Made by a program: the position numbers and the translations under genes
Shown here: positions 1 through 26,883 of the stretch, piece by piece
How the letters are laid out: every line of letters starts with the position of its first letter
Numbering within the stretch: the first letter of the stretch is position 1
Origin: Deltaproteobacteria bacterium
GTDB taxonomy: Bacteria; Desulfobacterota; Syntrophia; Syntrophales; Smithellaceae
Length of the DNA: 57,101 bases
Reading direction: 5' to 3'
NCBI GenBank assembly: GCA_025361065.1
Contig: JANYAY010000073.1
Coordinates: 1 to 57,101, forward strand
The notes under the pieces: model-generated
Seen by the model: only the letters and a program-made list of their open reading frames with translations
Database searches by the model: none
Told to the model about the DNA's origin: nothing

Positions 1-15
1 CGCTCGCCAAAATCG

Positions 16-56
16 AAGTAAAGGGGCTTCCGGCTACGCCTTCAGCCCCTTTACTT
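16..56. repeat. perfect 13-bp inverted repeat (hairpin)
   Basis: AAGTAAAGGGGCT at 16-28 is perfectly complementary to AGCCCCTTTACTT at 44-56, around a 15-base loop. There is no T-tract after it on the plus strand. It could be a gene-end hairpin from the gene beyond the left edge. Its style (GC-rich loop with a 'GGCTACGCC' core) recalls the attC hairpins near 54 kb, but no RYYYAAC or GTTRRRY core is visible, so attC is not claimed. Confidence 0.5.
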
Positions 57-204
57 AAGCATAGTAAAAGCGGACATATCATGTGCTACAAAATAGGACT
101 TTTCTATTTGCTCCTAACATAAAAATAACTGCATAAAAATAACTGCAATTTTCTTGACACTAAAGCCGTGGCTCCCTATACTGAATCAACTTTGCCCTGA
201 TGTT

Positions 205-285
205 TTAATCCCGCTAGCGCGGGACGAGCGTTAATTCTTCTCAGCGAGCTCGTGACGTGATTGATCAACCTGAGAAATACAATAC
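205..285. repeat. interspersed repeat family R1, copy 1
   Basis: The core reads TTAATCCCGC, a short palindromic loop, GCGGGACGAG, then TTAATTCT. It is followed by CAGCGAGCTCG and a GTGATTGAT-like tail. Core and tail both recur at 10231-10345, and the core alone at 30539-30571. The CCCGC/GCGGG arms form a small hairpin. No coding frame crosses it. Confidence 0.6.
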
Positions 286-312
286 TCCTGTATGAGTAAA
301 TCCGGAGCATAT

Positions 313-414
313 ATGAATGATATAGTCAATAAGCTTAAAGGCCGCGGAGGGCTGATTTTCTTGGCAGTGGCTGTTGTTATTGAGCGTGTCTATATTTTCG
401 TACGCGGTAAATAG
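313..414 (+). CDS. possible 33-residue single-span membrane peptide
   Basis: A short open frame starts at an ATG with a GGAG six bases upstream and runs 33 codons to TAG. The product has a basic N-terminus (NKLKGRGG) followed by one hydrophobic stretch (LIFLAVAVVIERVYIFVRGK), which would make a one-pass membrane peptide. I do not recognise the family. It lies between a copy of repeat R1 and the ECF-like cluster and is too short to be convincing from composition alone. It could be a chance frame or the remnant of a larger gene. Confidence 0.3.
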   Translation: MNDIVNKLKGRGGLIFLAVAVVIERVYIFVRGK

Positions 415-1170
415 GCTTCTTAGGCGACAAGACGGACGAAGAACTAATTAAAAGATAAAATGGTGAATGTTGGCGATAGTGAAAATGTGACTGGTCCTGA
501 TTTCCTGTTCAATCTTGATAAATAGGTTCAGACTTCAAATACTAACAGGCATAATTGCTAATCTGATTAATTTATTGAATTCTAGATGAAAGGTGAGAAC
601 GCAAAGAGGAGGTTGTTGTAAATCGTTCTTTTCTCTTGACAAGAAAAATAGAGAGACTCCCCATCTCGTCCTGGTTCTATCATAAAAAATATTATGACAA
701 CCAACTGATTGTTTTTCTTGCATTTTGTTTCTGATGCTGTATTATTCGTAATGTATTCGCCGGCGAGTAAATCGAAGATAACCCATGCTAAGCGGATTCA
801 TGCGCTGGCAGAATAAATATGGAATAGCCATGCAACCGATGCCCCATCGGTTGACGTGATCTTTGAATAGAATGTATTGAAGATGATGTCGTCTGTTACC
901 GTAATTGAAAATGGAATGGGCATACCTTTCGTAGATGTATCTGAACTTTTTCAAAGAATCGATGGGGTCACGGAAATAACCAGGGGAGGCAACCCAAAAG
1001 GGCGATTCTCGCATGGGGAGGATGGAAGAAGTCAAATCTTAACCTTTGGACTATTGAGAATCAGTTCTCCATTTGATAGGAGATGGATTAAGTCTGCAGC
1101 CAATTAATTACAGCCGGTGGACAGCGGGACGTTTGACGGCAGAGGTTTTATCGAAAAAGGAGAAACATGA
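415..1170. other. region without a supported gene
   Basis: Open frames here (minus 535-723 and 742-1035, plus 877-1107) lack good ribosome sites and recognisable motifs. A 9-bp inverted repeat (CAACCGATG/CATCGGTTG) lies near 834-854. AAGGAG at 1157-1162 is the ribosome site of the next gene. The region may hold decayed sequence, since no 5' part of the MFS gene truncated at 6514 is seen here. Confidence 0.5.
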
Positions 1171-1749
1171 ATGAATGGACAACTTTTCTGTGTTATAGTT
1201 GGATTGTGCGCATTTATCGTAGCCTTTGTCCTTGGCACGGCAGCAACATTTACTACAGGGATTCCGCTTGTTGGGGGATTGTTTAACGGTGTATTGACCT
1301 CAATGATCTTGACCATAGGGATGCTTGGAACTAGAAATAAATATAAATGGTCCGGCACCGTAATGTGGTTTGTATTTTCAACCGCCGCAATTTTTACTAC
1401 AACGCTCGGCCCGCCGGGTGTTTACAAACTGCTAATTGGAGTGGCGGCGGGCTTAACGTGGGATCTTTTATATCGGGTATTTAAATACAGGCGTGTCGGG
1501 CTCTATTTAGGCGCGATAGCAGGCGGTCTGATTATTACAGGATTGTTAATTTTGATCTTACAGCTAATGATAAAAGGCTTTGCTACTTATTTATCAGCAG
1601 GCAGTGGTAACATTCATGTAAGCCTTGATCGGCTCATATCATATATTTACTTTCTCATACCAATGAATATAGTTGTAACTATTTGTGGTGTATTTTTGGG
1701 AGAAAAAGTGTTTGAAAAAAGGTTAAATGATATTCTAAAGGTTAATTGA
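1171..1749 (+). CDS. ECF-type transporter S-component-like membrane protein
   Basis: A 192-residue, very hydrophobic protein with about five to six membrane segments. A glycine-rich first pair of helices (GIPLVGGLFNGVLTS) and a last helix ending in GVFLGEKVFEKRL are typical of substrate-binding S components of energy-coupling-factor (ECF) importers, which bind a vitamin or metal and hand it to a T/A/A' module. The start is chosen because AAGGAG lies eight bases upstream; an ATG four bases earlier is out of frame. The next gene, a double ABC ATPase, starts one base after the stop, and a T-like membrane protein follows, so the trio fits a complete ECF module. The substrate is unknown and no riboswitch was recognised upstream. 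The S assignment is by topology and context. Confidence 0.6.
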   Translation: MNGQLFCVIVGLCAFIVAFVLGTAATFTTGIPLVGGLFNGVLTSMILTIGMLGTRNKYKWSGTVMWFVFSTAAIFTTTLGPPGVYKLLIGVAAGLTWDLLYRVFKYRRVGLYLGAIAGGLIITGLLILILQLMIKGFATYLSAGSGNIHVSLDRLISYIYFLIPMNIVVTICGVFLGEKVFEKRLNDILKVN

Positions 1750-1750
1750 C

Positions 1751-3022
1751 GTGCTTGAGATTGGACTTGGAAAAATAACGCTTGGGCGGGACGCTGTTCT
1801 TGAGATTGTATCTTCAGTTTTCGTGAGCCCCGGCGTTCGAAATCTGTATGTTGGCGCTAATGGCTCGGGGAAAACTTCCCTCTTTCGATATATCGCAGGT
1901 CAACTTAGGCCTCTACTTGATCAGTCGTCCGCACCTTGTATCCGCGTTAATGGCAAATTATTACAACCTTTGACAATGAGTGTCTGTGCTTTTGTTCCGC
2001 AATCACCTAATGATGGCCTGTTTGGTTTGCCGGTATGTGATGAGTTGGAAACAGCGTCTGATTCAGTTGATAATAATTTTTTACAGTCATTAATTGGATT
2101 GTTTGAACTTTCACCTCTTCTTTCACGCTTCAGTTACGAGTTGTCAGATGGGGAACGCATGAGAACTTCTATCGCTATTGCATTAGCGGCAAGAAGAAAT
2201 TGGCTTGTACTTGATGAATGGGCGACACATCTAGACTTAGTGTGGCAAAACAAGATATCGCAATATCTCACGCAGCAGGTCAAAAATGACGGGTGCGGAA
2301 CATTGGAGTTTGTAAACTCTGATCAACCTGAAATTCAAACCATGCGGCTTGATTTACAGCTTCATAATAAAAATAGCATTTCTAAATTGGCTGAGCGACC
2401 TGGACCTGAGGATATGGGGGTAGCATTTGGACGAAGCAGATCTTGTTTAAATGCTTTTGAGGTGAAGCATAGTGGGTGGCTTCGTCGTGGCACATTTCGT
2501 AAACGAGTTCAGCCCAAGGTTTTTAAATCAGGCAACTTAATTGCTGTTGTTGGTCGCAACGGTAGCGGGAAAACCACATATCTAAGACAACTATCCAATG
2601 TGCGTTGGTCAATAAGGGGCAATCCGAATGTTTCTCTTGTTCTCGCTGAACCTGGCTTGCAAATAATGGTAGATGATATAGAAAAAGTATTATCACAGGC
2701 GCAATGCGGCGCAGAATCCAGACGATACGTTTTAAATCAAATTATCTATACACAACCGTCTATCAGCACTGGTCTACTTAATTTTAGCCGACGGAAATTA
2801 CTAGGAGCCTTTCTTGCACTAAATAGTAAGGCACCTCTTATTGCAATCGACGAGTTTGCAGTGGGTCTTGATGAAACATCTTTAGACACGATGAGGGCAA
2901 TGATTGTATATTGTGTGCAAAGTTTACGGAAGTGCGTTATCGTTTCAGCATTTGATACACAGCATCTTGGGCTTTTGCCAGTTGATCAAATTATTGATCT
3001 TGATGTGGAGGGTGTGTGTTGA
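1751..3022 (+). CDS. fused double ABC ATPase (ECF A-A' like)
   Basis: A 423-residue protein with two ABC ATPase domains. Domain 1 has Walker A GANGSGKTS (about 35-43), a Q-loop in FVPQSPNDG (81-88), signature LSDGE (131-135) and Walker B WLVLDE (151-156) followed by HLD. Domain 2 has Walker A GRNGSGKTT (268-276) and Walker B LIAIDE (363-368), but its signature is degenerate (NFSRRK, about 344-349). One of the two composite ATP sites is therefore probably weak, as in many asymmetric exporters and importers. There are no membrane segments, so it must act with the membrane proteins on either side, most likely as the EcfA/EcfA' pair in one chain. The start is GTG, one base after the previous stop. 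It overlaps the next gene by seven bases, indicating translational coupling. Confidence 0.75.
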   Translation: MLEIGLGKITLGRDAVLEIVSSVFVSPGVRNLYVGANGSGKTSLFRYIAGQLRPLLDQSSAPCIRVNGKLLQPLTMSVCAFVPQSPNDGLFGLPVCDELETASDSVDNNFLQSLIGLFELSPLLSRFSYELSDGERMRTSIAIALAARRNWLVLDEWATHLDLVWQNKISQYLTQQVKNDGCGTLEFVNSDQPEIQTMRLDLQLHNKNSISKLAERPGPEDMGVAFGRSRSCLNAFEVKHSGWLRRGTFRKRVQPKVFKSGNLIAVVGRNGSGKTTYLRQLSNVRWSIRGNPNVSLVLAEPGLQIMVDDIEKVLSQAQCGAESRRYVLNQIIYTQPSISTGLLNFSRRKLLGAFLALNSKAPLIAIDEFAVGLDETSLDTMRAMIVYCVQSLRKCVIVSAFDTQHLGLLPVDQIIDLDVEGVC

Positions 3023-3681
3023 TTCGGGATTCGGGATTCGTAGGGTACGCCCTTATTGGACAGTGCATGCCATTTTTGCTAACAAGTCGCGCCAGTGTGC
3101 TAATATTTTTATTGATTAGTGGGTTTGTATTACTTGCACATCTTATGTCCTTGCGCATCTCAATGATTGTTAGCCGTAAGTATCTATTCTTCATTGAATT
3201 GATTCTATCGCTATTGGCGCTTATAGTTATTGTACTGAATTTTTCGCCAACATGGGCTGCCTTCTTAATGAGTTCTGCACTGGTCCTTATGTTGAGTGAT
3301 TGGGTTAATTTTAGAATACTGTGTGGCTGGTTTATTCCAAGGAAAAAACAGCCACTTCATACACAGCCAACTCTTCTTGAAAATTTCGCAATTGTAATTG
3401 CTAATGTAAGGCCCCTCATTTTTGATTTTAAAGATTCGCGTCGTTACTCACTTGGATGTGAAAGTGGTGGTTTTTTTTCAAACATGCTCGAAAGCGTTAT
3501 TAGCTTTTTTGTTCATATGTTCGGGTTGGGTGAGAGAATCACTCGAGTAGCTCATATAAGACGCTTCAGGCTTGGGAGCAATTGTTTAGTTACGCATAAC
3601 ATTGCGTGGTCTCACTTTGCATGGTTTGCAGATATTTGTTTGTTGACTCTACTTTTTTGTTACATTATAGGATTAATATGA
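3016..3681 (+). CDS. EcfT-like transmembrane protein
   Basis: A 221-residue protein with hydrophobic stretches near residues 18-45, 55-75, 80-95 and at the C-terminus, separated by a polar cytoplasmic segment. Near the end, AHIRRFRLG resembles the Ala-Arg-Gly-type coupling helices by which T components (CbiQ/EcfT) contact the ATPases, but it is not canonical. The GTG start overlaps the ATPase stop, and the gene's own stop overlaps the next ATG (ATGA). Position between an S-like protein plus double ATPase and two unknown genes suggests the T scaffold of an ECF importer. Similarity to CbiQ at 22.9-23.7 kb is not obvious by eye, so this is a context-based call. An unrelated membrane protein remains possible. 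Confidence 0.45.
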   Translation: MLIRDSGFVGYALIGQCMPFLLTSRASVLIFLLISGFVLLAHLMSLRISMIVSRKYLFFIELILSLLALIVIVLNFSPTWAAFLMSSALVLMLSDWVNFRILCGWFIPRKKQPLHTQPTLLENFAIVIANVRPLIFDFKDSRRYSLGCESGGFFSNMLESVISFFVHMFGLGERITRVAHIRRFRLGSNCLVTHNIAWSHFAWFADICLLTLLFCYIIGLI

Positions 3682-4694
3682 AAACAACAATGATTCAAAA
3701 AGAACAAACGCCCTTAGAGAGTTATGGCCTGTTACTCTTTCCCACATACCGCTTCGTTTTAAGTCCCAGTGGATTGTTTCGCCAATCCGGCGGCACATCA
3801 AACACAGGTCTTTTCGCGTATGCTTTAGAGGCTATTTGTAGATCGGAGCAGCTTTGGGAAACATTCGGTCCGCTTTCTGCTGAAAAGTTGTATTTAAGAA
3901 TTTTATCAGAAGCGATCTCTGAAAAAGAGAGCTCTCAATGGTGGCGTTGGGAGAAGAATCCATCGCGGGCGGACTATCTTTATCCCTTTGATTGGGATGA
4001 CCAATTTAAGGCAATGGATGGACTTCAAGCATATGCTAGCCTAAAGGCCGAAAGGGCATCCGAACTCCGGTTCCCCAGTGCGGCTGTGTTGACTCATCGC
4101 ATTTCCAAATCTCTTTATTCATCTTCTGAGCTTGGTGAAGACGTTAAGCTTAACACATCAAACAAAACCGCTCTTTTTATGTTTGATGAGAGTAAAGGGG
4201 CTAAGCTGGGTAATAAGGAAGATATTTTTGTTACGGCTGTTGTTCTGGAGTCGGCGGCAAGATATGGTCTATACGACAACTTAGGATTCAACGCAGTCGC
4301 GCTTGACTTATATAAAAGGTTACTATTTGCGGCAGAGGAAGGCCTGATGCGGCGGTTACCGTTTCACACACTTTCGCGATGCTATTTATCATGGGCTCAT
4401 TTTATTTATCTGCTCGACAGAATTAGTCTTAATCTTGGCGTAGAATCAAAACTTTATGATTTTACATATCTATACGCGCAGCATGTTACGACATCCGCCC
4501 CAACAGTTATTGAGCTGGCTAATGAAAGGCATGATGCTTATTTTCGCAAAGCATTAGGCATGCAAGCTTTTCACCGATCATCTGATAGTTGTTTAGATGA
4601 CACGATTGTATATAGACACAGACGTCTTGGTGATTATTATTCATCTCCTGTTTGGGATGATATACTTGCTCATAACTGCATACATGCCAGCTGA
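3678..4694 (+). CDS. unknown protein, possible alpha/alpha-toroid fold
   Basis: A 338-residue soluble protein I cannot assign. The start is the ATG in the ATGA overlap with the previous stop; an in-frame upstream start at 3606 would lie inside the previous gene. It is rich in Tyr, Trp and Leu helices. Residues about 101-116 read YPFDWDDQFKAMDGLQ, a 'P-x-D-x-DD-x-x-x-A-x-x-x-L' pattern like those in alpha/alpha-toroid proteins of the terpene-cyclase/prenyltransferase-repeat type. That is a by-eye resemblance only. There are no signal peptide or membrane segments. Tight coupling to ECF-like genes suggests it works with the transported compound or the transporter. Function unknown. Confidence 0.6.
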   Translation: MKTTMIQKEQTPLESYGLLLFPTYRFVLSPSGLFRQSGGTSNTGLFAYALEAICRSEQLWETFGPLSAEKLYLRILSEAISEKESSQWWRWEKNPSRADYLYPFDWDDQFKAMDGLQAYASLKAERASELRFPSAAVLTHRISKSLYSSSELGEDVKLNTSNKTALFMFDESKGAKLGNKEDIFVTAVVLESAARYGLYDNLGFNAVALDLYKRLLFAAEEGLMRRLPFHTLSRCYLSWAHFIYLLDRISLNLGVESKLYDFTYLYAQHVTTSAPTVIELANERHDAYFRKALGMQAFHRSSDSCLDDTIVYRHRRLGDYYSSPVWDDILAHNCIHAS

Positions 4695-4774
4695 AGAGCT
4701 AGATTTTTGAAAATACAACTTAAGGAACTTCCTACCCTTTTGTAGGACAGTTGCATTAATAGGAATATTATTAA
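4695..4774. promoter_or_regulatory. short spacer with small hairpin and ribosome site
   Basis: TCCTAC/GTAGGA forms a short hairpin (about 4729-4748) without a convincing T-tract. AGGA at 4761-4764 lies ten bases before the ATG at 4775, which is the likely authentic start of the next gene (see the frameshift entry). Confidence 0.3.
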
Positions 4775-4938
4775 ATGACAACAACTGATAAAAAACGAAG
4801 AAGAAAAAAAATCTAGGGAAATGGATATACCAGTGCGACAACGATGAAAAGTGCTGGAAGTCGTGGGATAAGTCCAGTGGTAAGTTTATAGCAGCTGGCG
4901 AACGTGCTGCACAGTTCCTTCATTTAATATTTGATTTC
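4775..4938 (+). other. out-of-frame 5' end of the AAA+ gene (A8 frameshift)
   Basis: An ATG at 4775 with AGGA ten bases upstream opens MTTDKKRRRKK and then hits TAG just after a run of eight A (4804-4811). If one A is added, or the ribosome slips -1 on A-AAA-AAA, the frame continues without a stop through 4812-4938 (NLGKWIYQCDNDEKCWK and onward) straight into the AAA+ frame. The 4939 TTG start is therefore probably not the true start. The alternatives are a homopolymer sequencing error, a real inactivating indel or programmed slippage; sequence alone cannot separate them. Confidence 0.6.
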
Positions 4939-6483
4939 TTGAATCCTCGACGGCAGGTGAAAAATCCTGTTTATGTGATCTTACAGATGCGGAAGTTCAC
5001 AGACTCTACTACTCGAGAAGAGGTCCTTGGTTCGCTTCTAACATTACAAACAATTCCACCTGAATTATTTGTAGAGGCGGATTCTTATAGAGCACTTGAT
5101 AGAACTATCGAAATTCTTACTCCAGCTCTCTATGTCGAAACAGATTACGATCAGGAGAAGGAAACGATACTTCTTAAGCATATGACGGGGTGGTCTAAGA
5201 AGGACGAATTGAAAAACAGGCAAGCTTTATTAGAATGTGATTGGAATATTGATGTTGTACTTTGCCTCCGTCAACTTGATGAGACTCTTGATAAAAATGG
5301 CACTGGGCGTCTTACTGCTTTTGTGGAACCTAAAAAACCGCCAACAGGTTATTCCACCATTGATGGCGTTTGGAAACCCGATGGCCCCGACGCTGAAAAG
5401 AATGGACGGGCAGCACTTGAATCTTGTGTGTGCATACCATGGGTACCGCCATGGATAAGATATTATGGAGCAAAAAACAAAAAATGTGTTTTATATCTTC
5501 TTAAAGGTGAAAACGCCAGATCTGCACTAATAAGCATATCTGATAAGGCATGGAGAAGAACCTCGGTAAGGAATATTTTACTGGCGGGAGGACCTGGCGC
5601 CGGCAAAGAAGTTGCTGCACTACTTATTCATGCTGGCCGAGCAAAAAATAATTTTAAAGCCATTTCTATTGGTGGTTCGTCTTGGAACAATATGGAAATT
5701 GCCTTTCTTGGCCAAGGACAACCCGGAAGTGCACGAACTCTCTTGACTGGTTTCGTTGAAGAGTCAAGAAATGGGACATTGCTTGTTGATGAGACGGATA
5801 AAGCTGATCGGTCCATCAGGGATGCGTTGCTGAGAGTTCTTGAAAGCGATGAATTTCATAGGCCACATAGTGGTGAAAGAGTCGATATTAGCGGACCATC
5901 AAGACCATTATTTGTATTTGCGGGTAGTGGTGAGGGGGCAGCTGTTGATAAACATAAAAAGAAAGAGAAGAAGCTTGATTATGAGGGAACGCGTGTCGAT
6001 AAGATGTCGAGAATAGCGAGAATGGAATTAGAATATCCACCAGATTTTTGGCAGCGCATGGATGTTAAAATAGAGTTAAAGCATCCATACAAAAACACGG
6101 ACCAAAACACGGACCCAAAAAGAGACGATGATGAATCAGTATTTGATACCTACGTTAAGTACTTTCTCAATCACGCGAGAGGATCATTACGACTTACAGA
6201 CTATTCGCCATTTATCTCAGATCGATTATTGTTTCTAACTCAAGATATTGTTGATTCACAAATTGGAAGTCAGTGGTGCAAATTTACAGCCGCCTTGCAG
6301 GATGCATTAAAAAAGAATACAGTAAAAACTGATCTGCCTAACCTACGAATAGTAAGAAGCGCGGCATCAATGCTTTTTGAGAAAATTTCTCATAAAGCTA
6401 TGTGTGGTGAACTTATGGATATAACCGACAAGAAGATAAAAAAGCTTGCTGAGGAAGCAGTAGACAACGTTAAAAATGGATAA
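4939..6483 (+). CDS. sigma54-activator-type AAA+ ATPase lacking GAFTGA
   Basis: 514 residues in the open frame as given (TTG start); the natural protein probably begins about 55 codons earlier. The N-terminal ~200 residues are unrecognised. The AAA+ core has Walker A GGPGAGKE (217-224), a helix pair ending ARTLLTGFVEESRNGT, Walker B LLVDE (281-285), a sensor region with FVFAGSGEG, and an FWQRMDVKIEL segment matching the arginine-finger region of bacterial enhancer-binding proteins. Where those proteins carry GAFTGA for sigma54 contact, this one has FLGQGQPGSA. There is no C-terminal HTH. It is therefore unlikely to be a normal sigma54 activator; a remodelling or signalling role for the neighbouring gene products is inferred. 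Codon use is AT-rich like the rest of the cluster. Confidence 0.65.
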   Translation: MNPRRQVKNPVYVILQMRKFTDSTTREEVLGSLLTLQTIPPELFVEADSYRALDRTIEILTPALYVETDYDQEKETILLKHMTGWSKKDELKNRQALLECDWNIDVVLCLRQLDETLDKNGTGRLTAFVEPKKPPTGYSTIDGVWKPDGPDAEKNGRAALESCVCIPWVPPWIRYYGAKNKKCVLYLLKGENARSALISISDKAWRRTSVRNILLAGGPGAGKEVAALLIHAGRAKNNFKAISIGGSSWNNMEIAFLGQGQPGSARTLLTGFVEESRNGTLLVDETDKADRSIRDALLRVLESDEFHRPHSGERVDISGPSRPLFVFAGSGEGAAVDKHKKKEKKLDYEGTRVDKMSRIARMELEYPPDFWQRMDVKIELKHPYKNTDQNTDPKRDDDESVFDTYVKYFLNHARGSLRLTDYSPFISDRLLFLTQDIVDSQIGSQWCKFTAALQDALKKNTVKTDLPNLRIVRSAASMLFEKISHKAMCGELMDITDKKIKKLAEEAVDNVKNG

Positions 6484-6513
6484 TACATTAACAGATTAGT
6501 CCATTTCTGCGGT

Positions 6514-6726
6514 TTGTGTTGGTCGGCTCAGCTTCTGTTACAGAAGGGAATGGATCCGGTAACGGCCGAGCACGGCGGGGCCGGCGTTATTTATAATGAA
6601 CTTCTGAGGCAGGCGTATATGCTGTCCTTTAATGATGTATTTTTTGTTCTGGCAATAATAATTCTCTGCATGCTGCCCTTCGTACTGTTTATCCGTCATG
6701 TTGATTATAGCGCCGTAAAGCCATGA
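6514..6726 (+). pseudogene. 3' stub of a DHA2/EmrB-type MFS efflux permease
   Basis: The frame encodes the C-terminal ~60 residues of a 14-helix drug:proton antiporter: a loop with GMDPVTAEHGGAGVIYNELLRQAYMLSFND, the last helix FVLAIIILCMLPFVLFI and a short RH tail. The nominal TTG start has no ribosome site and the rest of the gene is absent. The coding signal begins within about 30 bases of the end of the AAA+ gene. The efflux gene was evidently cut when the AT-rich cluster arrived or by a linked deletion. Base composition becomes more GC-rich here. Confidence 0.7.
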
Positions 6727-6904
6727 TATTTCTCAGCGCTCAGCGTTGAAATTTGTAAAAGCGTCCGGGCGCAAAGGCTTATGATCCGTCATGAGCCGGC
6801 GGGCGAAGTCGCAATGCCGCTTTTGCCTGTCAATAAAAGATTAAGTTGGGCCAGCTCTGCACTGCCGGGAAAAAGTCAAACAGAGATGCCCATCTGTCCT
6901 GGTA

Positions 6905-8863
6905 TTAGATCTCCCAGGCTGCCTTCGCTCCTTCAGTTGTTGCTTCAATAATCCGGCGGGGAGTGTTGGCATCACCGACGATAAAGTGGCGAATGCCTTG
7001 CCTTATCAGCATGTCTTTGAGTGTGCTTCTGGGCGTCACGCCAATCGCGACGATAACCTGGCCGACCGGTTCGAGCTTTCGATCCTCGCCGTTTTGCGTC
7101 ACAACTACTGATCCTTCCGCAATCCGCTTTACAGTTGTGCCGAACAGCAGTTTGATTCCGGCTGCCCGGAGGCGCTTATGCAGCATGTACCCGTGAGCGG
7201 CAAAGGGCAGCACAGGCGAAGCAGGCAGCATTTCCACGAGGGTAATATCTTTGATGCCTTTTTCACATAGGAAATCGGCCGTTTCCATACCGACAAGCCC
7301 CCCGCCGATGATGACTATGTTATTTTTAGGTTTAACTTCGCCATCCAGAATCTGCCAGGCATCACAAACTACCGCTGAGTTGATGCCCTCAGCCGGACAG
7401 GTCGCTTTACCGGCGCCGATAGCGAGGATGACGACATCGGGTTTGCCCGCTTCGATCATGGATTCGTTTACTTCGATGTTTGTCCTGATTTCCACACCTT
7501 TCTTGAGACAATTTGCCGTCAGGGTCCGTATATATTTGCCGTACACCGCTTTGTGCGGCGCTTTCGCCGCATAACGGACATTTCCACCTGTTTGGTTTTC
7601 CTGCTCGAAGAGAGTTACGCGATGCCCCAGGCGCGCGGCCTCGAAGGCAGCGGTCAGCCCGGCGGGCCCGCCGCCGACAATCCAGACATTACGGTTGATT
7701 GCCGTCGGGGCCGGAGGGTAAAGTAATTCCTGCCCTGTCTGCGGATTAATGGCGCAACGAATCGGCAGCGCCTCTAATGACAGACGTTCAATGCATCCCT
7801 GATTGCAGGCCAGACATTCCATTGTATCCTCGGGATGTCCGGCCACGGCGTTTTGAAGAAAATCGGGGTCGGCCAGATGTTGTCTGGCCACGGCAATAAA
7901 ATCCGCATCACCTCTCGCGATTACTTCATCCATGACATAGGGATCGACATAGCGCCCGACGGAAATGACGGGGACAGCCGTCACTTCTTTGATTTTCCGG
8001 GCCAGATGCGCCTTAAAACCCTGGTTGTATTCAACAGGAGCGCTGGGATTAGGCGTATCAATATTTACTTCCGGGTTGCTGTGGGTGCCGAAGGACACAT
8101 TGATGATGTCCGCACCGGCACTGACCAGATCGGGGATAATGGTTTGCATGTCGGAGATGGTATAGCCGTTTTTAATGCACTCTTCGCCAGAGATCCGGAT
8201 GGACATCGGGAAATCCTGACCCACCTGTCTGCGGACTTCCCGGAGGCAATCGAGCATGAAGCGTGATCGTCCGCGGAAATCGCCGCCGTATTTATCGGTG
8301 CGACAATTGGAATTGGCCGAGAGAAACTGCATGAGCAGATAACCATGGGCACCGTGGAGTTCCACGGCGTCAAAGCCGGCATTTCTGGCGCGCACGGCGG
8401 CGCTGCCGAAAGCGGCGATGGTTTCCTCTATCTCTTCTTGTGTCATCTCGCGCGGCGCACCTAAAAAGCCAAAGACATAACTGGGTATGGCTGAAGGGCC
8501 GACAGCTTTCTTTTTGCGTTGCAAAAGGTAGTTTTCGCGGCCAGTGTGGTGCAACTGCATGGCGATCTTGCTGCCCCGGGCATGAACGACCGCGGCAAGT
8601 TTGGTTAGCCCGGGAATAAACTTGTCATCCCATACGCCCAGGCAGCGGGGCGAAGCCGAGCCCAGAGGATGCACTTCCGTGATTTCGGTGATGATCAGTC
8701 CGGCGCCGCTGGCGGCCCGGCGGTTCATATAAGCCAGGTTTGCTTCGCTGACGGTGCTGTCATTATTGCCCAGGGCTGTTCCCATCGGCGGCATGACCAG
8801 CCGGTTGCTGATTTCCAGATTTCTAATCCGTATTGGTTCGAGCAGGTGTTTTAAAGTTTTCAT
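6905..8863 (-). CDS. NADH:flavin oxidoreductase / 2,4-dienoyl-CoA reductase-like enzyme
   Basis: A 652-residue protein of the usual size for the FadH / trimethylamine-dehydrogenase family. The N-terminal ~350 residues form an old-yellow-enzyme TIM barrel binding FMN (NRLVMPPMGTALG, then ELHGAHGYLLMQFLS with the catalytic H-x-Y region). Next comes a four-cysteine 4Fe-4S motif (CLACNQGCIERL with a further Cys in PIRCAINP). The C-terminal half has two dinucleotide folds (VGGGPAGLTAA for FAD; IGGGLVGMETADFL for NAD(P)H). Members reduce enoyl or dienoyl thioesters and other activated double bonds. Starts at ATG with GGGGAGA upstream. It appears monocistronic, ending facing the MFS stub. The exact substrate cannot be read from sequence. 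Confidence 0.88.
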   Translation of the reverse strand: MKTLKHLLEPIRIRNLEISNRLVMPPMGTALGNNDSTVSEANLAYMNRRAASGAGLIITEITEVHPLGSASPRCLGVWDDKFIPGLTKLAAVVHARGSKIAMQLHHTGRENYLLQRKKKAVGPSAIPSYVFGFLGAPREMTQEEIEETIAAFGSAAVRARNAGFDAVELHGAHGYLLMQFLSANSNCRTDKYGGDFRGRSRFMLDCLREVRRQVGQDFPMSIRISGEECIKNGYTISDMQTIIPDLVSAGADIINVSFGTHSNPEVNIDTPNPSAPVEYNQGFKAHLARKIKEVTAVPVISVGRYVDPYVMDEVIARGDADFIAVARQHLADPDFLQNAVAGHPEDTMECLACNQGCIERLSLEALPIRCAINPQTGQELLYPPAPTAINRNVWIVGGGPAGLTAAFEAARLGHRVTLFEQENQTGGNVRYAAKAPHKAVYGKYIRTLTANCLKKGVEIRTNIEVNESMIEAGKPDVVILAIGAGKATCPAEGINSAVVCDAWQILDGEVKPKNNIVIIGGGLVGMETADFLCEKGIKDITLVEMLPASPVLPFAAHGYMLHKRLRAAGIKLLFGTTVKRIAEGSVVVTQNGEDRKLEPVGQVIVAIGVTPRSTLKDMLIRQGIRHFIVGDANTPRRIIEATTEGAKAAWEI

Positions 8864-17676: not shown

Positions 17677-17910
17677 TTATTCTTCAAAAACTTCACATTC
17701 TAATTTAAAATTCGGCGTATGAACCAAAACAAGTTTGGCTTTATCAGATCCCGCATTTTTGTAAGTAAATCGCTCTCCTTTGCGGATGAAGCAAACATCA
17801 CCGATAGAAAGGCTGCGCGACTCTTCATTGACAGTAAAAATCATATTCCCGCAAACTATATAATAATATTTGTCCGATCGATTTGACCAAATAAGCCGAA
17901 AAGGTTGGTT
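17677..17910 (-). pseudogene. 5'-truncated cupin
   Basis: The frame ends EVFEE-stop and contains KYYYIVCGNMIFTVNEESR, SIGDVCFIRKGERFTYKN and LVLVHTPNFKLECE. This is the second half of a cupin barrel, with PG-like turn SIGD and no His in motif 2. There is no start codon; the frame runs back into the stop codon of the nuclease gene. The junction coincides with the AACCAAC (R''-like) core, so the loss of the cupin start is probably linked to cassette movement. Confidence 0.6.
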
Positions 17911-18443
17911 TATTTATAACCTTTGGTACGGAGCACATCCTCAATCTTTCTAAAACCTTCAAGCCCATTATAATATGCAGCATTATTCTTAACTGGAGCA
18001 TATTTCTCAGCTTCAGTATTAATTTCTAAAAATATAGGGAAAAATAACCATGTCCCATCCTCTTTGTTCCAGTCAGTTTTTAATAAGTCAACGACATCTT
18101 TTGATGGTACAAAATAAATCTCTGGTGGTTTGCCGCTTTGGGGCCAATCGTATAAAGCAACAAATGCATACCAATGTGAATTTCCTGTGTCATTTTTTGA
18201 CTTAGATGAAACACCCCAAGTTAAATACTTCCCGTACTTCCCATGAGAATTATATGGTTTTGTAGCTGTTTTCACTTGTAATGAAATTGTATTATTACCT
18301 TCTGGAGTTGTTACAAGTAAATCTGATGATGGAACTCCGCCTCTTGGCAAGGCCACTACAAAACCTAAAGCAGATAAATATGATGCAACATAGAACTCAC
18401 CTGCAGCACCTGTTATTGCAGTACTAGGTTTAGCTTTACTCAT
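17910..18443 (-). CDS. PD-(D/E)XK nuclease-like cassette protein
   Basis: 177 residues. GAAGEFYVASYLSALGF near the N-terminus, then GVPSSDLLVTTPEGNNTISLQVKTA, gives the Glu ... Asp ... Gln-x-Lys pattern of a PD-(D/E)XK nuclease fold (E in AAGE, D in SSDLL, QVK). Families of this form occur singly in genomes and in integron cassettes, where they are thought to be nucleases, but activity is not proved by sequence. GGGAGGG, which overlaps the attC end GTTGGGA, is the ribosome site. AT-richer than the neighbouring chromosomal genes, as is usual for cassettes. Confidence 0.65.
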   Translation of the reverse strand: MSKAKPSTAITGAAGEFYVASYLSALGFVVALPRGGVPSSDLLVTTPEGNNTISLQVKTATKPYNSHGKYGKYLTWGVSSKSKNDTGNSHWYAFVALYDWPQSGKPPEIYFVPSKDVVDLLKTDWNKEDGTWLFFPIFLEINTEAEKYAPVKNNAAYYNGLEGFRKIEDVLRTKGYK

Positions 18444-18451
18444 TTTTACCC

Positions 18452-18507
18452 TCCCAACGAGGAATTCACCGGGCGCGGCAGCGCTCCGGTGAAATGATAC
18501 GTTAGAT
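18452..18507 (-). repeat. attC site between cassettes A1 and A2
   Basis: On the minus strand: ATCTAAC (fits RYYYAAC exactly), GTATCATTTCACCGGAGCGC, a short GC loop, CCGGTGAATTCCTC and GTTGGGA (fits GTTRRR, last base A rather than a pyrimidine). The TTCACCGG/CCGGTGAA arms are a perfect 8-bp stem. It starts directly after the stop of the first gene and ends in the ribosome site of the next. Confidence 0.75.
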
Positions 18508-19095
18508 TTATAGTAGGCTCAAAATTGCCGAAGCTATTGTAGCGATATTTGCAGCATGAGGCAGACTCGCCAAGAGAGCTGACATTATTGATTTCTTTGG
18601 TTGGCCAGACTGGATTTGTGATTCCAATGCATCCACGATCTCGTATGCGGATTGTCTCTCAGAATCTGGAATATCTAACTTCGCCAGCTCTCGACGGAGT
18701 TCACTTATGTGATTGAGAATTCGATTATCGATTTGAACAACATTATAAGAATAGTCGACCGAGTTTTGATTTACTCGCGCGTTGTTGCCAGTAATATTGA
18801 ATGTGATATGCTGAATTTCCTTTTTTGCATCCTGAAGTCCGAGTTTCTCCACATCCATTTGATAGTTCGCTGGAATCCCACCAAATTTCTCATAGAAACC
18901 TGGGTCAATAACTTTGTATGTCTCTTCCGCACCATTGGACATTTTTCTAATAATCAAATCACCTGACTCAATGAGGAGTTTACCGGCATCCATAAATATT
19001 TTCGACTTCTGCACGCTTGCTTTAAGCCCTGAAGTTCTCGAACCATCTTTCTTAAGAAGCTCGACAGTATCATTCATTAATTCTCTAAATGGCAT
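18508..19095 (-). CDS. unknown cassette protein with C-terminal hydrophobic segment
   Basis: 195 residues from the ATG at 19095. The ATG at 19113 lies inside the GTTAGAT core and has no ribosome site, while AAAGGAG sits six bases before the second ATG. The middle holds ITFNITGNNARVNQNSVDYSYNVV, an 'N-A-R-V-N-x-N-S-x-D-x-S' string I associate with linkers in abortive-infection-type proteins (AbiTii-like); this is recollection, not a search. A helical segment (LRRELAKLDIPDSERQSAYEIVDALE) and a hydrophobic C-terminus (ALLASLPHAANIATIASAILSLL) follow, the latter a possible membrane or pore helix. First cassette of cluster A. A defence role is possible but unproven. Confidence 0.6.
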   Translation of the reverse strand: MPFRELMNDTVELLKKDGSRTSGLKASVQKSKIFMDAGKLLIESGDLIIRKMSNGAEETYKVIDPGFYEKFGGIPANYQMDVEKLGLQDAKKEIQHITFNITGNNARVNQNSVDYSYNVVQIDNRILNHISELRRELAKLDIPDSERQSAYEIVDALESQIQSGQPKKSIMSALLASLPHAANIATIASAILSLL

Positions 19096-19111
19096 ACGAA
19101 TCTCCTTTTTC

Positions 19112-19152
19112 ATCTAACAATTAATATACTTGCCAGGTATTTTCCGATATTT
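19112..19152 (-). promoter_or_regulatory. shared cassette start site A (attI-like)
   Basis: Minus strand: AAATATCGGAAAA, 13 bases, TATTAATTGTTA, completing the R' core GTTAGAT. The same two blocks at the same spacing occur at 51965-52005 ahead of cassette cluster B. It is a candidate attachment site; it is too short a match to exclude chance without a genome search. Confidence 0.5.
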
Positions 19153-22202: not shown

Positions 22203-22937
22203 TCAGTATCTCTGGAGCGACAAAGGAAGTTCCAAATTATTCTCTTCGAGTAGTTTCCTGTCCGAGAGGATTTCCCGGGCTGGACCGTCGGCCGCCACCG
22301 TTCCTTCCCTGATCACGATGCAGCGGGAACAGACATCCAGGATCAGGTCGAGGTCGTGGGAGGCGATGATGCGCGAATGGGAGAAGGTCGTAAGCAGGTT
22401 GATAAGGAGCCTCCGCGATTTGGGATCGAGGTTTGCGGCAGGCTCATCCATCGCCAGGATATCAGGCTCCATAGCCATAACCGTAGCGATGGCGACGGCG
22501 CTCTTCTGGCCGCAGGAGAGATGGTGCGGCGGTTTGTCGCGCAGGGCGAAACTGTTTACGAGATTCAGGGCATCATGCACACGTTGGCGGACATCCTCTT
22601 CCTCCATGCCGAGATTGCGCGGACCGAAGGCGACATCGTCGTAAACGGTGGGCATAAAAAGTTGATCATCGGGATTCTGAAATACGATGCCGACTTTTTT
22701 CCGGATTTCCTGGCGTGTCTTGCCCGTCAGATGAAGGTCGCCGATAGTCACTATCCCTGATGTGGGGAGGAGGTGGCCATTTAAGTGTAAAAGCAGGGTG
22801 GACTTGCCTGCGCCATTGCCTCCAATGATGCCGACCGCTTCACCGTGGGTGATGCGAAAGGAAACATCACGAAGCGCCTCCGTCGAGTCGGGATAGCGAA
22901 AAAAAACATTCCTGAAATCAACAATATGATGGCTCAT
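22203..22937 (-). CDS. cbiO: cobalt/nickel importer ATPase
   Basis: 244 residues from MSHHIVDFRNV; the frame is open to 23006, but AGGAG sits eight bases before this ATG and the gene then overlaps cbiQ by four bases. Walker A GGNGAGKST, Q-loop FQNPDDQLF, signature LSCGQ, Walker B DILAMDEPAANLD and switch His (IIASHDLD) are all present. It is the A subunit of an ECF-type metal importer, powering CbiQ/CbiM at the inner membrane. CbiO-type ATPases form homodimers here since only one ATPase gene is present. Confidence 0.9.
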   Translation of the reverse strand: MSHHIVDFRNVFFRYPDSTEALRDVSFRITHGEAVGIIGGNGAGKSTLLLHLNGHLLPTSGIVTIGDLHLTGKTRQEIRKKVGIVFQNPDDQLFMPTVYDDVAFGPRNLGMEEEDVRQRVHDALNLVNSFALRDKPPHHLSCGQKSAVAIATVMAMEPDILAMDEPAANLDPKSRRLLINLLTTFSHSRIIASHDLDLILDVCSRCIVIREGTVAADGPAREILSDRKLLEENNLELPLSLQRY

Positions 22938-23743
22938 AAAAACAACTCCTGAAAAAAGCGGCCGAGTATTTCGGAAACGGGATAAAACCGAAAGACAAAC
23001 AGACAAACCACAACCGAGCCTGCGAAGATCATGTCCCGTGTGGCGATAGAGTAGTGTTTGCCGGTCGGCATATCCCCCTGAAAACCCCGGGCCAGCATGG
23101 CAAAATAGATCCGCTCGGCCCGTTCGACGGTCCGGAGAAAAAGGACCCCCATGATGCGGACAAAAACTTTAACGTCCGTTCCCTTGCGGCCAAAAGACCT
23201 CATGTCGCGAGCCCGAACGATGCGCATGGTTTCTTCGGCGAGGACAAAAATATAGCGGTACAGGAAGAGAAGCTGTGAAACAAAAAGGGACGGCATGCCG
23301 AGTTGGCGGAGGGCATGACAGACCGTCGGGAAAGAAGTCGTGGCGATCAGCAGCAGCGCCGTGCTTACAGTCAGAATAAACTTAAGCAGGATGGAGGCAA
23401 AAGAGAACCATCCCGCCGCGACAGTCAGTGCCGGTAAAACTGCTACCGGCGCGGTATCCAGCAGGGGGTTGAAAATGCCGATAAAAATTGCGAAGGGGGA
23501 AACAATCGCCACCTTCTTGACAATGAACCACAGGGGAATTTCTCCTGCGGTCAACAGTATTGCCGGAAAGAGAAAAAAAGGGAAAAGCGCCGCTACCTCA
23601 TACTTGGGAAAGGATATCACAGTAAAGAGAAAAAGCAGAGATGTGATCAGTTTAATCCGGGGATCAAGCCGATGGACGAAGGTGTCCGCATAAGAGAGTC
23701 TATCGAGATACCCGATATTGTAATATTGCTCGTCAAAGGCCAT
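22934..23743 (-). CDS. cbiQ: cobalt/nickel importer T component
   Basis: 269 residues with five to six hydrophobic segments (for example LITSLLFLFTVISFP, LLFLYRYIFVLA). It shows the two coupling motifs of the CbiQ/EcfT family in VRARDMRSFGRKG and MLARGFQGDMP (Ala-Arg-Gly type). It joins the S component to the ATPase. It lies two bases downstream of cbiM and overlaps cbiO. Confidence 0.88.
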   Translation of the reverse strand: MAFDEQYYNIGYLDRLSYADTFVHRLDPRIKLITSLLFLFTVISFPKYEVAALFPFFLFPAILLTAGEIPLWFIVKKVAIVSPFAIFIGIFNPLLDTAPVAVLPALTVAAGWFSFASILLKFILTVSTALLLIATTSFPTVCHALRQLGMPSLFVSQLLFLYRYIFVLAEETMRIVRARDMRSFGRKGTDVKVFVRIMGVLFLRTVERAERIYFAMLARGFQGDMPTGKHYSIATRDMIFAGSVVVCLFVFRFYPVSEILGRFFQELFL

Positions 23744-23745
23744 TG

Positions 23746-24786
23746 TCAGCTTTGCCTTTTCTTGAAGGTTTTGATCCCGAATCCGATCAACATAATCAGC
23801 CCCAGGACAATGGCGCTCCCCACTATGCCGGCCACTGAAGTGCCCGGTTCAATTTGCGGCCAGGAAGCAGGTTTCCCGTCTTTGCCTGCGGCGGGTGATG
23901 TTGACGGGAAATTGTAGTCCGGAAGAAAAGCGGTCTTTTCCTGAACTTTCCTCAGAGCGGCGGCGATGCCTTGCGTTTGTTGTGCCAGTTCTCCCTTTCG
24001 AGTAATTTTTTCGATGGACCATTCCAGGCCGTCCGGATGAGTTGAGGCAAACCAGGAGAGGGCTCCACCGGTGATGACAGTTATGATGGCAAAGACTATC
24101 AGAATATTTTTGACCGGGGTACCGGCAGCGTGAGGACGGGAGGTGATATTGCTTTCGAGAAACTCCGGCCGGGCGCTCTGGACATAGCTGATGATCCCGG
24201 CTGTGACAAATCCTTCCACGAGGCCGATAGCCAGGTGTATCGGTTGCATGAGGAGGAGAAAGGTGTCCAAGGGCAATTCACTCTTGCCGGAGAGGAGCGT
24301 TTCCAGCACAACGGAAAAAGCGCCCAGCTGCAGTGCAATGAGCGCGCTTACGATCGCAGCGATGGACAGCCGTCGGGTACTTGTTCCCTTTCCCGCGATG
24401 GGTTTATAAATCAAAGGGTAGGCGAGAAAGCAGGGGTAGATGCCCAGATTCCAGATATTGCAACCCAGGGCGAGCAGTCCGCCGTCGGCGAAGAAGAGCG
24501 CTTGCACTGTCAGGACTGAGGCCAGGACGAGAAAAGCCGCATAGGGACCCAGCATGATGGCCAGGATCATGCCCCCGCCCAGGTGTCCGCTCGAACCGGT
24601 GCCGGGAATGGTGAAATTGATCATCTGGGCGGCAAAAATGAATGCGCCCATAACTCCCATAAGAGGAATTGTTTTGTTGTCGATCGTTTCCTTGAGCTTC
24701 TTTGATGCATACCCGAGTGCCGCCAGCGATCCGGCCCACATTGTTGCGCCCACCGCCGGAGAGAGTAAAGCGTCTGCCATGTGCAT
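23746..24786 (-). CDS. cbiM: cobalt/nickel importer S component with fused PDGLE domain
   Basis: 346 residues. Residues 1-215 are CbiM: MHMADALLSPAVG, with the His2 N-terminus that binds the metal, and multiple helices including GHLGGGMILAIMLGP. The C-terminal ~110 residues contain STHPDGLEWSIEK (the PDGLE motif of CbiN/NikN-type accessory subunits) followed by a periplasmic loop and a last helix (IVLGLIMLIGFG). M and N functions are thus joined. Metal (Co2+ or Ni2+) cannot be decided, and no cobalamin riboswitch was recognised upstream of the operon. Confidence 0.88.
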   Translation of the reverse strand: MHMADALLSPAVGATMWAGSLAALGYASKKLKETIDNKTIPLMGVMGAFIFAAQMINFTIPGTGSSGHLGGGMILAIMLGPYAAFLVLASVLTVQALFFADGGLLALGCNIWNLGIYPCFLAYPLIYKPIAGKGTSTRRLSIAAIVSALIALQLGAFSVVLETLLSGKSELPLDTFLLLMQPIHLAIGLVEGFVTAGIISYVQSARPEFLESNITSRPHAAGTPVKNILIVFAIITVITGGALSWFASTHPDGLEWSIEKITRKGELAQQTQGIAAALRKVQEKTAFLPDYNFPSTSPAAGKDGKPASWPQIEPGTSVAGIVGSAIVLGLIMLIGFGIKTFKKRQS

Positions 24787-24805
24787 AATGAATTTCCTTC
24801 CTTTT

Positions 24806-25588
24806 TCAGAAGCGGATGGCTATCCCCGTCATCAGCGACCAGTCCGTTTCCAATGAGTTCAAACCGTATTTCACGCCGCAATCCAGATCAATATTTTCAG
24901 CAAGTGAATAGATCAACCCTCCGATGAGGAAGGCAGGATCGTTCTTCTCATTTTTATCGGGATTGCGTTCGATTGCGATGTTGGCAACCAGCTTCAGATT
25001 TTTGAGCGCTTCCCAGTTTGCTGCCAGAGAGGCATGCCAGATATTTTTTTGCTCATCGACCTTGTTTTCATTTCGAATATATCCCAGATTGACATGAAGT
25101 GCCCAGGGAGATAACTCTTTTGACCCGATTAGAAAGGCCTGATAGCCGACTTCTCCGGCTCCCAGTCCCTTTTTATAGTCACCGGTGGGTATGCGGATAC
25201 CCGGCTTCAACGCCAAACTGCAGCCTTTTTTATCGAAGAACCGCCACTTGGTTTCGAAAACGATGTCGGAGAATCCATTTTCAGCGTGGGTCGTTGATGT
25301 ATTTTCCTCGATCTTTCCCCACTGATAGGGAAGGCTGAAGACTATATCGATGTTTTCGACTATTCCATAGGACAGGATCGTCGCCACCTGTCCCCCTGTG
25401 GTCTTTATGGCTACGCCGTCAACAGTTTCTTTTCCCGAGTCATATTGATTGTTCAGTTCCAGTTGGAACTTACCCTTGCCTTGGGTACCGGCATCATCGG
25501 TAATCAATGGGTGGGCTGCCCAGGATAGTTCAGCTGCGACCAGCAATGCCGAGAGAAGAAATCCTGCTATCAATCTATACAATTTCAC
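24806..25588 (-). CDS. predicted outer-membrane beta-barrel protein
   Basis: 260 residues with a cleavable signal (LIAGFLLSALLVAAELSWA-A) and then alternating polar/aromatic strands: GKFQLELNNQYDSG, NIDIVFSLPYQWG, IVFETKWRFF, ALKPGIRIPTG. The terminal Phe of TGIAIRF is typical of outer-membrane barrels. It resembles the MetA/phenol-degradation-type 'transporter' barrels. It is the first gene of the cbiMQO transcription unit (19 bases before cbiM), so it may admit the metal or a metal chelate through the outer membrane; that link is inference from position. Confidence 0.68.
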   Translation of the reverse strand: MKLYRLIAGFLLSALLVAAELSWAAHPLITDDAGTQGKGKFQLELNNQYDSGKETVDGVAIKTTGGQVATILSYGIVENIDIVFSLPYQWGKIEENTSTTHAENGFSDIVFETKWRFFDKKGCSLALKPGIRIPTGDYKKGLGAGEVGYQAFLIGSKELSPWALHVNLGYIRNENKVDEQKNIWHASLAANWEALKNLKLVANIAIERNPDKNEKNDPAFLIGGLIYSLAENIDLDCGVKYGLNSLETDWSLMTGIAIRF

Positions 25589-25826: not shown

Positions 25827-26675
25827 ATGGTATCAGATCAGCAACCCGCAAAATTTCGTGGCGCTTCGCGTTACGTTCTCGATGAAGAATTGGCCAAAAT
25901 TGTAAATATTTCCATGGCATTGGAAATGCCACTCCTGCTCAAAGGAGAGCCGGGCACAGGCAAAACAATGCTGGCACATGCAATTAAGGAAAGTTTGCAT
26001 ATGCCTTTGATTGTTCTCAATGTTAAATCCAGCATGAAGCTGGTTGATGCGCTTTATCAATATGATACATTAACCCGTCTCAATGACAGCCGCTTTGGTG
26101 ATTCCCAACGCAATGTCAGCAATATAGAAGAATATCTCAAAATGGGGAAGATCGGTCAGGCCTTTGTTGCGGAAAAGAAAGTCGTTCTTTTAATCGATGA
26201 GATTGACAAGGCTGACAATGATTTTCAGGACGATATGCTCGACATTCTCGATCAAATGCAATTTGATATTATGGAAACCGATAAAACAATTTCCGCCAGA
26301 CACCGGCCGGTGATAATAATTACTTCCAATGCGAAAAAGGATTTGTCCGATCCTTTTCTCGGCCGCTGCAATTTCCATCACATCGCTTTTCCCGACCGTG
26401 ATTTGATGCGCCAGATTATCGGAGTGCACTTTCCTGATTTAAACAGTGATCTGGCCGGAGCTTGTCTGGATGCTTTTTACCGGCTGCGTGATGTTCGCGG
26501 AGTCGAGAAAAAACCGGCCACCCGGGAGTTGATTAACTGGATCCGTGCCTTGCAGGCAGATCCGGATTTCCAGTTAAAAAGTCTGAAATCAGGAAAAATT
26601 CCTTATCTGGGTGTACTCTTCAAGAAGAGCAATGACCTGTATATGGCTTTGCATCAGTCGTCAGCGTCCAAATGA
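25827..26675 (+). CDS. MoxR-family AAA+ ATPase
   Basis: 282 residues, standard size. Walker A GEPGTGKTML (about 39-47), Walker B VVLLIDEIDKAD, a sensor 1 IIITSNAKKD and an arginine-finger region (DPFLGRCNFHHIAFP) are present. It begins at ATG with AAGGAG upstream. MoxR proteins act as chaperones that load cofactors or activate enzymes together with a von Willebrand A (vWA) protein, and the next gene is such a protein. A MITE now lies between the two, starting three bases after this stop. Confidence 0.88.
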   Translation: MVSDQQPAKFRGASRYVLDEELAKIVNISMALEMPLLLKGEPGTGKTMLAHAIKESLHMPLIVLNVKSSMKLVDALYQYDTLTRLNDSRFGDSQRNVSNIEEYLKMGKIGQAFVAEKKVVLLIDEIDKADNDFQDDMLDILDQMQFDIMETDKTISARHRPVIIITSNAKKDLSDPFLGRCNFHHIAFPDRDLMRQIIGVHFPDLNSDLAGACLDAFYRLRDVRGVEKKPATRELINWIRALQADPDFQLKSLKSGKIPYLGVLFKKSNDLYMALHQSSASK

Positions 26676-26678
26676 GAT

Positions 26679-26845
26679 AACGACCTCGTAAAAAGCCCAT
26701 ATGCTGTTTATCACCTTCAGGTGACGTTGGCGCAGCATCCCTCCCCGGCCTTCGCCGGGGCAGGCTTATTGCGACGTACGTTTAAAGTACGACTCACTCC
26801 TCGGGATTTGCGCGCCTTGCCTCTGGATCTTTTTACGAGGTCGTT
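26679..26845. mobile_element. MITE-like element M1 (terminal repeats CTCGTAAAAAG)
   Basis: The left end AACGACCTCGTAAAAAG (26679-26695) is a perfect 17-bp inverted match to the right end (26829-26845). The interior is shared with M2 (CATATGCTG, GCAGCATCCCTC, CTCGGGATTTGCGCGCC). It has no coding capacity. It carries smaller nested hairpins (CCCCGGC/GCCGGGG). It separates moxR from its vWA partner. Confidence 0.8.
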
Positions 26846-26883
26846 GAAAATTTATAATTTTGAAAATTTTGAGATAAATCCTT

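Follow-up and report, generated by a model that had tools for sequence, protein, structure and literature searches.

The window analysed here is a stretch of 57,101 nucleotides from a Deltaproteobacteria bacterium of the family Smithellaceae (contig JANYAY010000073.1), and it carries near its start four genes, g1 to g4 (Table 1). These genes form a real, rare, and tightly coupled operon, which encodes an unusual ATP-binding cassette (ABC) ATPase together with three proteins without significant family matches. Within 1171-4694, g1 and g2 are separated by a 1-bp gap, g2 and g3 overlap by 7 bp, and g3 and g4 overlap by 4 bp. An earlier note on this DNA had described five genes here, tightly spaced or overlapping and AT-rich against their surroundings, as an importer-like trio of the energy-coupling factor (ECF) type joined to a toroid-like protein and an AAA+ ATPase. 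All five open reading frames (ORFs) lie where that note placed them, but the tight spacing holds for g1 to g4, and the listed TTG start of the fifth gene, g5, is 244 bp away from g4 (80 bp if ATG 4775 is the start). Similarly, the G+C content of g1-g4 (41.5%) and of g5 (41.1%) is below that of the whole window (46.3%); however, the stretches at 9-13, 17-20, 28-35, and 52-57 kb are equally AT-rich, so that low G+C content does not single out this locus.

Table 1. Genes of the operon, the neighbouring gene, and the slip site at its start
Feature	Position	Strand	Description
g1	1171-1749	+	Polytopic membrane protein of 192 aa; S component candidate
g2	1751-3022	+	Tandem ABC ATPase of 423 aa; signature LSDGE in the N domain, degenerate in the C domain
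g3	3016-3681	+	Membrane protein of 221 aa; T component candidate through its position only
g4	3678-4694	+	338-aa orphan soluble protein, predicted mostly helical
g5	4939-6483 as listed (TTG); 4775-6483 if extended	+	AAA+ ATPase, sigma54-activator type
A8 run	4804-4811	+	-1 slip needed here for the ATG 4775 frame to enter g5

The operon has one relative in the genomes searched. A scan with a g4 pattern covered one genome per species (84,980 species, contigs of at least 3 kb) and had only close relatives within its reach; it returned a single 3,129-bp contig (L002) of a Thermodesulfovibrionia metagenome-assembled genome (MAG). This contig keeps the order g2 (end)-g3-g4 with 4-bp overlaps, and the protein identity to the window is 75% for the end of g2 (109 codons), 62% for g3, and 68% for g4. 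Between the two genomes, the C-terminal part of g2, g3, and g4 show differences at 46-51% of third codon positions and at 10-26% of first and second positions, and this excess at third positions indicates that the three are not chance ORFs. Moreover, their dN/dS ratios are 0.10, 0.15, and 0.17 by NG86 and 0.10, 0.26, and 0.21 by YN00, respectively, and all three are under purifying selection. The genes g2-g4 are thus a maintained unit, to which g1 probably belongs because it is tightly packed against g2. In addition, g4 was found in one of 99 relatives and in one of 395 genomes of the phylum, each time the window's own genome, and in one of 230 genomes of the MAG's class, which is the MAG itself. 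No third copy of the operon appeared in the searches made. Plasmids gave no match for g4 and nothing useful for g3 or g1, and viral contigs gave nothing useful for these three, for g5, or for a membrane protein found in L002. Phylum-wide searches with g1 and g3 returned only weak partial matches outside the window's own genome, and the MAG genome contained no g1 match at E ≤ 0.1. In the literature searched, no paper on this gene composition was noticed.

As the earlier note had proposed, g2 is a double ABC ATPase with a degenerate second signature. Pfam ABC_tran matches it in two stretches (1.6e-18), two Walker A motifs are present, and the C domain carries LNFSRRK, compared with LSDGE in the N domain. 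The N domain also retains GANGSGKT, the Q-loop glutamine, and VLDE, and its switch histidine position is occupied by serine or a gap, depending on the alignment. In the C domain, GRNGSGKT and AIDE are intact, the Q-loop glutamine is replaced by alanine, and the switch histidine is replaced by phenylalanine. Both LNFSRRK and this phenylalanine recur in the g2 of L002. Collectively, the switch histidine seems to be missing from both domains of g2. In ABC proteins, the Walker motifs of one domain usually pair with the signature of the other domain to form a composite site; under this pairing, neither composite site of g2 would be complete. The catalytically complete ATP sites expected of an ECF transporter were not found in g2.

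A ten-row alignment of the g2 domains included four ECF and three non-ECF references. The Q-loop length of both g2 domains equals that of all four ECF rows, whereas a one-residue gap occurs in all three non-ECF rows. At E ≤ 10, the C domain matches two of the four ECF rows and none of the three non-ECF rows. A Q-loop pattern that was loosened to Q or G so that it would accept g2 occurs in 22 of 33 Walker-A ORFs, g2 included, and three of the 11 ORFs without it sit in loci fetched with CbiQ. A plasmid search with g2 matched nine records. Five came from Rhodococcus, and the one examined adjoins cbiQ and other ECF genes in an ECF cobalt-type cluster. Only one plasmid match extends over most of g2; it is a protein from Enterococcus that is annotated as a fused ECF ATPase and encoded in an operon of the form T-AA-MptD-type S. 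In the ABC tree, which has very long branches, the g2 C domain lies beside this Enterococcus protein without support. Collectively, g2 is compatible with a fused A-A protein of the ECF type, but not with that type alone, and the two ABC ATPase domains of an ECF transporter are present in it, fused in one chain.

For g1, Pfam at E ≤ 10 returned two families only, both of them ECF S components: PF09819, which we take to be the YkoE family (E 1.4, profile positions 9-118 of 121; 9.5 bits, below the curated cut-off of 25.2 bits), and PF12822 (E 7.3, profile positions 44-160 of 169). Ten decoys gave four Pfam matches altogether, and an S-component family was matched by none of the ten. No NCBIfam match was obtained for g1 at E ≤ 10, and PDB sequences gave nothing useful. 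The AlphaFold model of g1 shows six helices at low confidence (predicted local distance difference test, pLDDT, 58), and the S component 3p5n is found at rank 23 for this model (Z 5.7, root-mean-square deviation 3.4, 80 residues), not above unrelated rows. Helix 1 carries an AXXXA motif (AFIVA, residues 14-18), which is said to mark S components docking on EcfT (PMC11109136).

The hydrophobic segments of g3 span residues 28-46, 56-74, and approximately 196-221. The g3 of the window has no Pfam match at E ≤ 10 and one chance-level match among PDB sequences, and the g3 of L002 has a single sub-threshold Pfam match to a holin family (E 0.016). By eye, g3 has stretches like the two arginine motifs of EcfT, but this likeness was dropped as evidence after shuffles reached its position-specific scores. 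A T role is suggested for g3 only by its position in the operon.

The 338 residues of g4 do contain the motif YPFDWDDQFKAMDGLQ, as the earlier note had stated. The protein has no match in Pfam, NCBIfam, PADLOC, PHROGs, or PDB sequences. Its structure model is helical and of low confidence (pLDDT 43); the best Foldseek E-value is 0.62, and the best VIA result (Z 7.4, root-mean-square deviation 3.1, 92 residues) belongs to partial helical matches. No internal repeat was detected in g4, as shuffles equalled its self-similarity in 55 of 200 and in 52 of 200 cases. Its DWDD motif is reminiscent of the DxDD motif of class II terpene cyclases. An alpha/alpha toroid (terpene-cyclase-like) fold for g4 was upheld by neither the model, the fold search, nor the repeat test, and a toroid is not taken as shown.

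We tentatively favour, at somewhat less than an even chance, the reading that g1-g4 encode a dedicated ECF-like importer composed of S, fused A-A, and T parts with a soluble partner and a diverged motor. The translationally coupled operon would then supply a dedicated ABC-type membrane complex working like a group I ECF importer. In such a complex, g1 would capture a scarce small molecule within the membrane, and g3 would link it to the fused ATPase. On ATP binding by g2, g1 would be tipped or released and the substrate would pass into the cell. Hydrolysis by g2 would probably be slow or asymmetric because conserved catalytic residues are missing. In the cytoplasm, g4 would receive, hold, or modify the substrate, by analogy with the YkoF that accompanies YkoEDC. 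All components of the importer would lie in one operon, provided that g1 is the S part and g3 the T part. The packing of the genes, the conservation of the g2 end with g3 and g4, the tandem ABC domains, the degenerate motifs, and the lack of a g5 link in L002 are established, and the S and T roles, the transport direction, and the part played by g4 are inferred.

The closest known layout is that of YkoEDC, an ECF transporter of group I whose substrate is thiamine or a precursor; here ykoE, ykoD, and ykoC encode a membrane protein, a fused A-A protein, and a membrane protein (PMC5037267). Some bacteria add a gene for the soluble thiamine-binding YkoF to this operon (PMC5037267), and the order of g1-g4 matches the resulting series of S, fused A-A, T, and soluble gene. 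In contrast to YkoEDC, g3 is unrecognisable as a T component, g1 falls below the cut-off, g4 matches no library, catalytic residues are missing in g2, and no THI box occurs in positions 1-7000. The Enterococcus MptD-type ECF transporter likewise contains a fused A-A protein, which aligns over 90% of g2 (24% identity, pairwise E 8e-20). However, its gene order is T-AA-S, and no g4-like gene is annotated in the stretch examined. Its T component matches PF02361 (6.2e-10) and its S component matches PF09605 (1.2e-40), whereas g3 and g1 match neither family; this diverged T component is still recognised by Pfam, unlike g3. If g1-g4 are an importer, they would add an ECF-like transporter that has diverged strongly and whose soluble partner belongs to no known family. 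The motor of this transporter would apparently be without the usual catalytic residues and would test the minimum ABC motor for moving an S component. If they are not, g2-g4 would form the central part of an ABC membrane complex that is so far undescribed.

Several observations weigh against an importer. One group concerns g3, which the earlier note had called T-like and which failed at the sequence level in all tests. Neither Pfam nor NCBIfam gave a CbiQ/EcfT match at E ≤ 10, hhalign against CbiQ/EcfT gave a probability of 0.0, and the CbiQ/EcfT profile scores lay inside the shuffle range, at ranks 48 and 142 of 805 rows. In a two-motif EcfT test, 76 of 1000 shuffles scored as high as the g3 of the window and 849 of 1000 as high as that of L002. 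Among real ORFs, 44 of 270 scored at least as high as the former and 135 of 270 at least as high as the latter, in a set that included true CbiQ proteins and g3 itself. Because g3 does not match the CbiQ/EcfT family of T components, we do not file g1-g4 as an ECF transporter.

For g1, both Pfam leads are insignificant, and three decoys had Pfam matches with lower E-values; the weight of these leads therefore lies in the identity of the families and not in the E-values. A search with PF09819 in 297 genomes at E ≤ 0.01 gave no match in the genome that holds the window, an hhalign comparison between g1 and proteins of the YkoE type was without success, and the g1 model has no significant fold match. 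Moreover, AXXXA occurs in 3389 of 10000 shuffles of helix 1 (34%), and YkoE is reported to have a different motif in its place (PMC5037267). The L002 contig starts inside g2, so that g1 is out of view there. For the S-like label of g1 there are six modelled helices and the S-family leads, but these leads are sub-threshold and the fold search gave no significant match. The importer trio as a whole is plausible in layout, although neither sequence nor fold proves it.

For g2, the N domain matches all seven reference rows, with CbiO slightly best (54.8 vs. 48.5 bits), and in the tree this domain groups with iron importers (100/97), although its branch is very long. Against PDB sequences, the best matches are twin ATPases of the RNase-L-inhibitor type for whole g2, a dipeptide-transport ATPase for the N domain alone (EcfA at rank 5), and RNase L inhibitors for the C domain alone (EcfA at E 0.026). 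The remaining three of the nine plasmid records, all examined, are ordinary non-ECF ABC importer operons. Finally, missing catalytic residues are unusual in a transporter.

Several of these points would also suit another kind of tandem-ABC membrane machine, for instance an exporter, a lipid or peptide extruder, or an envelope complex, in which two non-ECF permeases act with a soluble partner. The lack of significant matches of g1 and g3 to known families, the failure of g3 in the EcfT tests, and the grouping of the g2 N domain with non-ECF importers are consistent with such a machine, as is the further 250-aa membrane protein that follows g4 in L002 at a distance of 18 bp. However, the reference matches of the g2 C domain are ECF ATPases, the Q-loop spacing is ECF-like, and both Pfam leads of g1 are S components; we regard this machine as possible, but unlikely. 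In L002 itself, the 250-aa protein (2018-2770) is an orphan and a candidate extra subunit there, and positions 3030-3129 of that contig look like the start of a putative REP-associated (repetitive extragenic palindromic) transposase.

A regulatory or defence complex, in which a tandem ABC protein that binds ATP and hardly hydrolyses it would sense a signal and act via the membrane proteins, is considerably less probable. Neither composite site of g2 seems catalytically full under the usual pairing of domains, g4 is rare, occurring in two genomes, the genes are AT-rich, and the L002 contig ends in the putative transposase start, all of which would suit such a complex. However, PADLOC at E ≤ 1 gave no match for g1, g3, or g4, its g2 matches fit generic ABC similarity, and we are aware of no example of such a composition. 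Slightly more doubtful still is the proposal that a catalytically incomplete tandem ABC protein, a pair of orphan membrane proteins, and a helical protein that is likewise an orphan form an undescribed non-transport machine, such as a sensor, a gate, or a defence effector.

The least probable explanation, to be abandoned whether or not g1-g4 are an importer, is the five-gene system of the earlier note, in which g5 would be a subunit for energy-dependent control or remodelling. The same strand, the similar G+C content, and the possible 80-bp gap speak for it. Against it stand a different gene after g4 in L002, the restriction of g5 matches in the MAG genome to the AAA+ core (best 3.0e-7), no more than such core matches in 261 other genomes of the phylum (at most five candidates scored in each), and a start region that looks frame-shifted.

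The description of g5 itself as an AAA+ protein of the sigma54-activator fold without GAFTGA or a helix-turn-helix (HTH) domain was borne out. Pfam Sigma54_activat (PF00158) matches residues 210-308 (6.7e-10; 39.3 bits vs. a cut-off of 20.2 bits), the stretch corresponding to GAFTGA reads GQGQPGSARTL, and no HTH family is among the seven Pfam families that matched g5 at E ≤ 1. Similar to sigma54 activators of the NtrC/PspF type, g5 has the AAA+ core and a GKE Walker A motif; in contrast to them, it has its own N-terminal region. Its frame is open further upstream, to 563 residues, and the codon usage of 4813-4938 is coding-like at 0.12 per codon, on a scale where wrong-frame windows reach at most 0.05 and true-frame windows at least 0.17. 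A -1 frame shift at the A8 run between ATG 4775 and the main g5 frame (4775-4941) is probable, and this slip would be either an assembly error or frameshifting. Among 49 relatives, one genome passed 1e-10 with g5, which is the window's own. In the wider search, which scored at most five candidates per genome, four of 262 genomes passed 1e-9, the window's own among them. The other three match over 105-111 residues of the AAA+ core only, and no full-length g5 relative was found in the 261 other genomes or in the MAG genome. Plasmids gave partial AAA+-type matches only, none covering 80%. The protein that takes the place of g5 in L002 is unrelated to it. Thus, g5 was dropped as a component of the machine and is probably a separate neighbouring gene.

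The surroundings of the operon were also scanned. In positions 1-7000, Rfam gave two chance-level matches and no credible one. Counts of promoter-like sites (18, with 16.8 expected) and of terminator-like sites (3, with 5.8 expected) gave no lead. The tRNA and repeat scans gave nothing informative for the locus, and the comparison with phage DNA found nothing. GC-rich palindromes lie upstream of the operon at 17-55 and approximately 210-233 and look REP- or terminator-like by eye; the latter is also among the computed terminator-like sites.

Elsewhere in the window, two adjacent ORFs of 177 and 201 aa without a Pfam match at E ≤ 0.001 lie in an AT-rich stretch (17910-19113, minus strand), and an AAA+ ATPase gene is followed by a gene for a 397-aa protein, likewise without a Pfam match at E ≤ 0.001 (25827-28077, plus strand). 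A cobalt/nickel ECF cluster (22203-25588, minus strand) encodes a CbiO-like ATPase, CbiQ, and CbiM with a PDGLE domain, and a Phenol_MetA_deg-family protein adjoins it. As a comparison for g2, this cluster (22203-24786) has an ATPase of the ECF type; that protein carries QNPDDQLF and groups with CbiO-like rows, its CbiO-like label deriving from motif and tree only. In contrast to g1-g4, this cluster has a single canonical ATPase, and its CbiM and CbiQ are clear family members.

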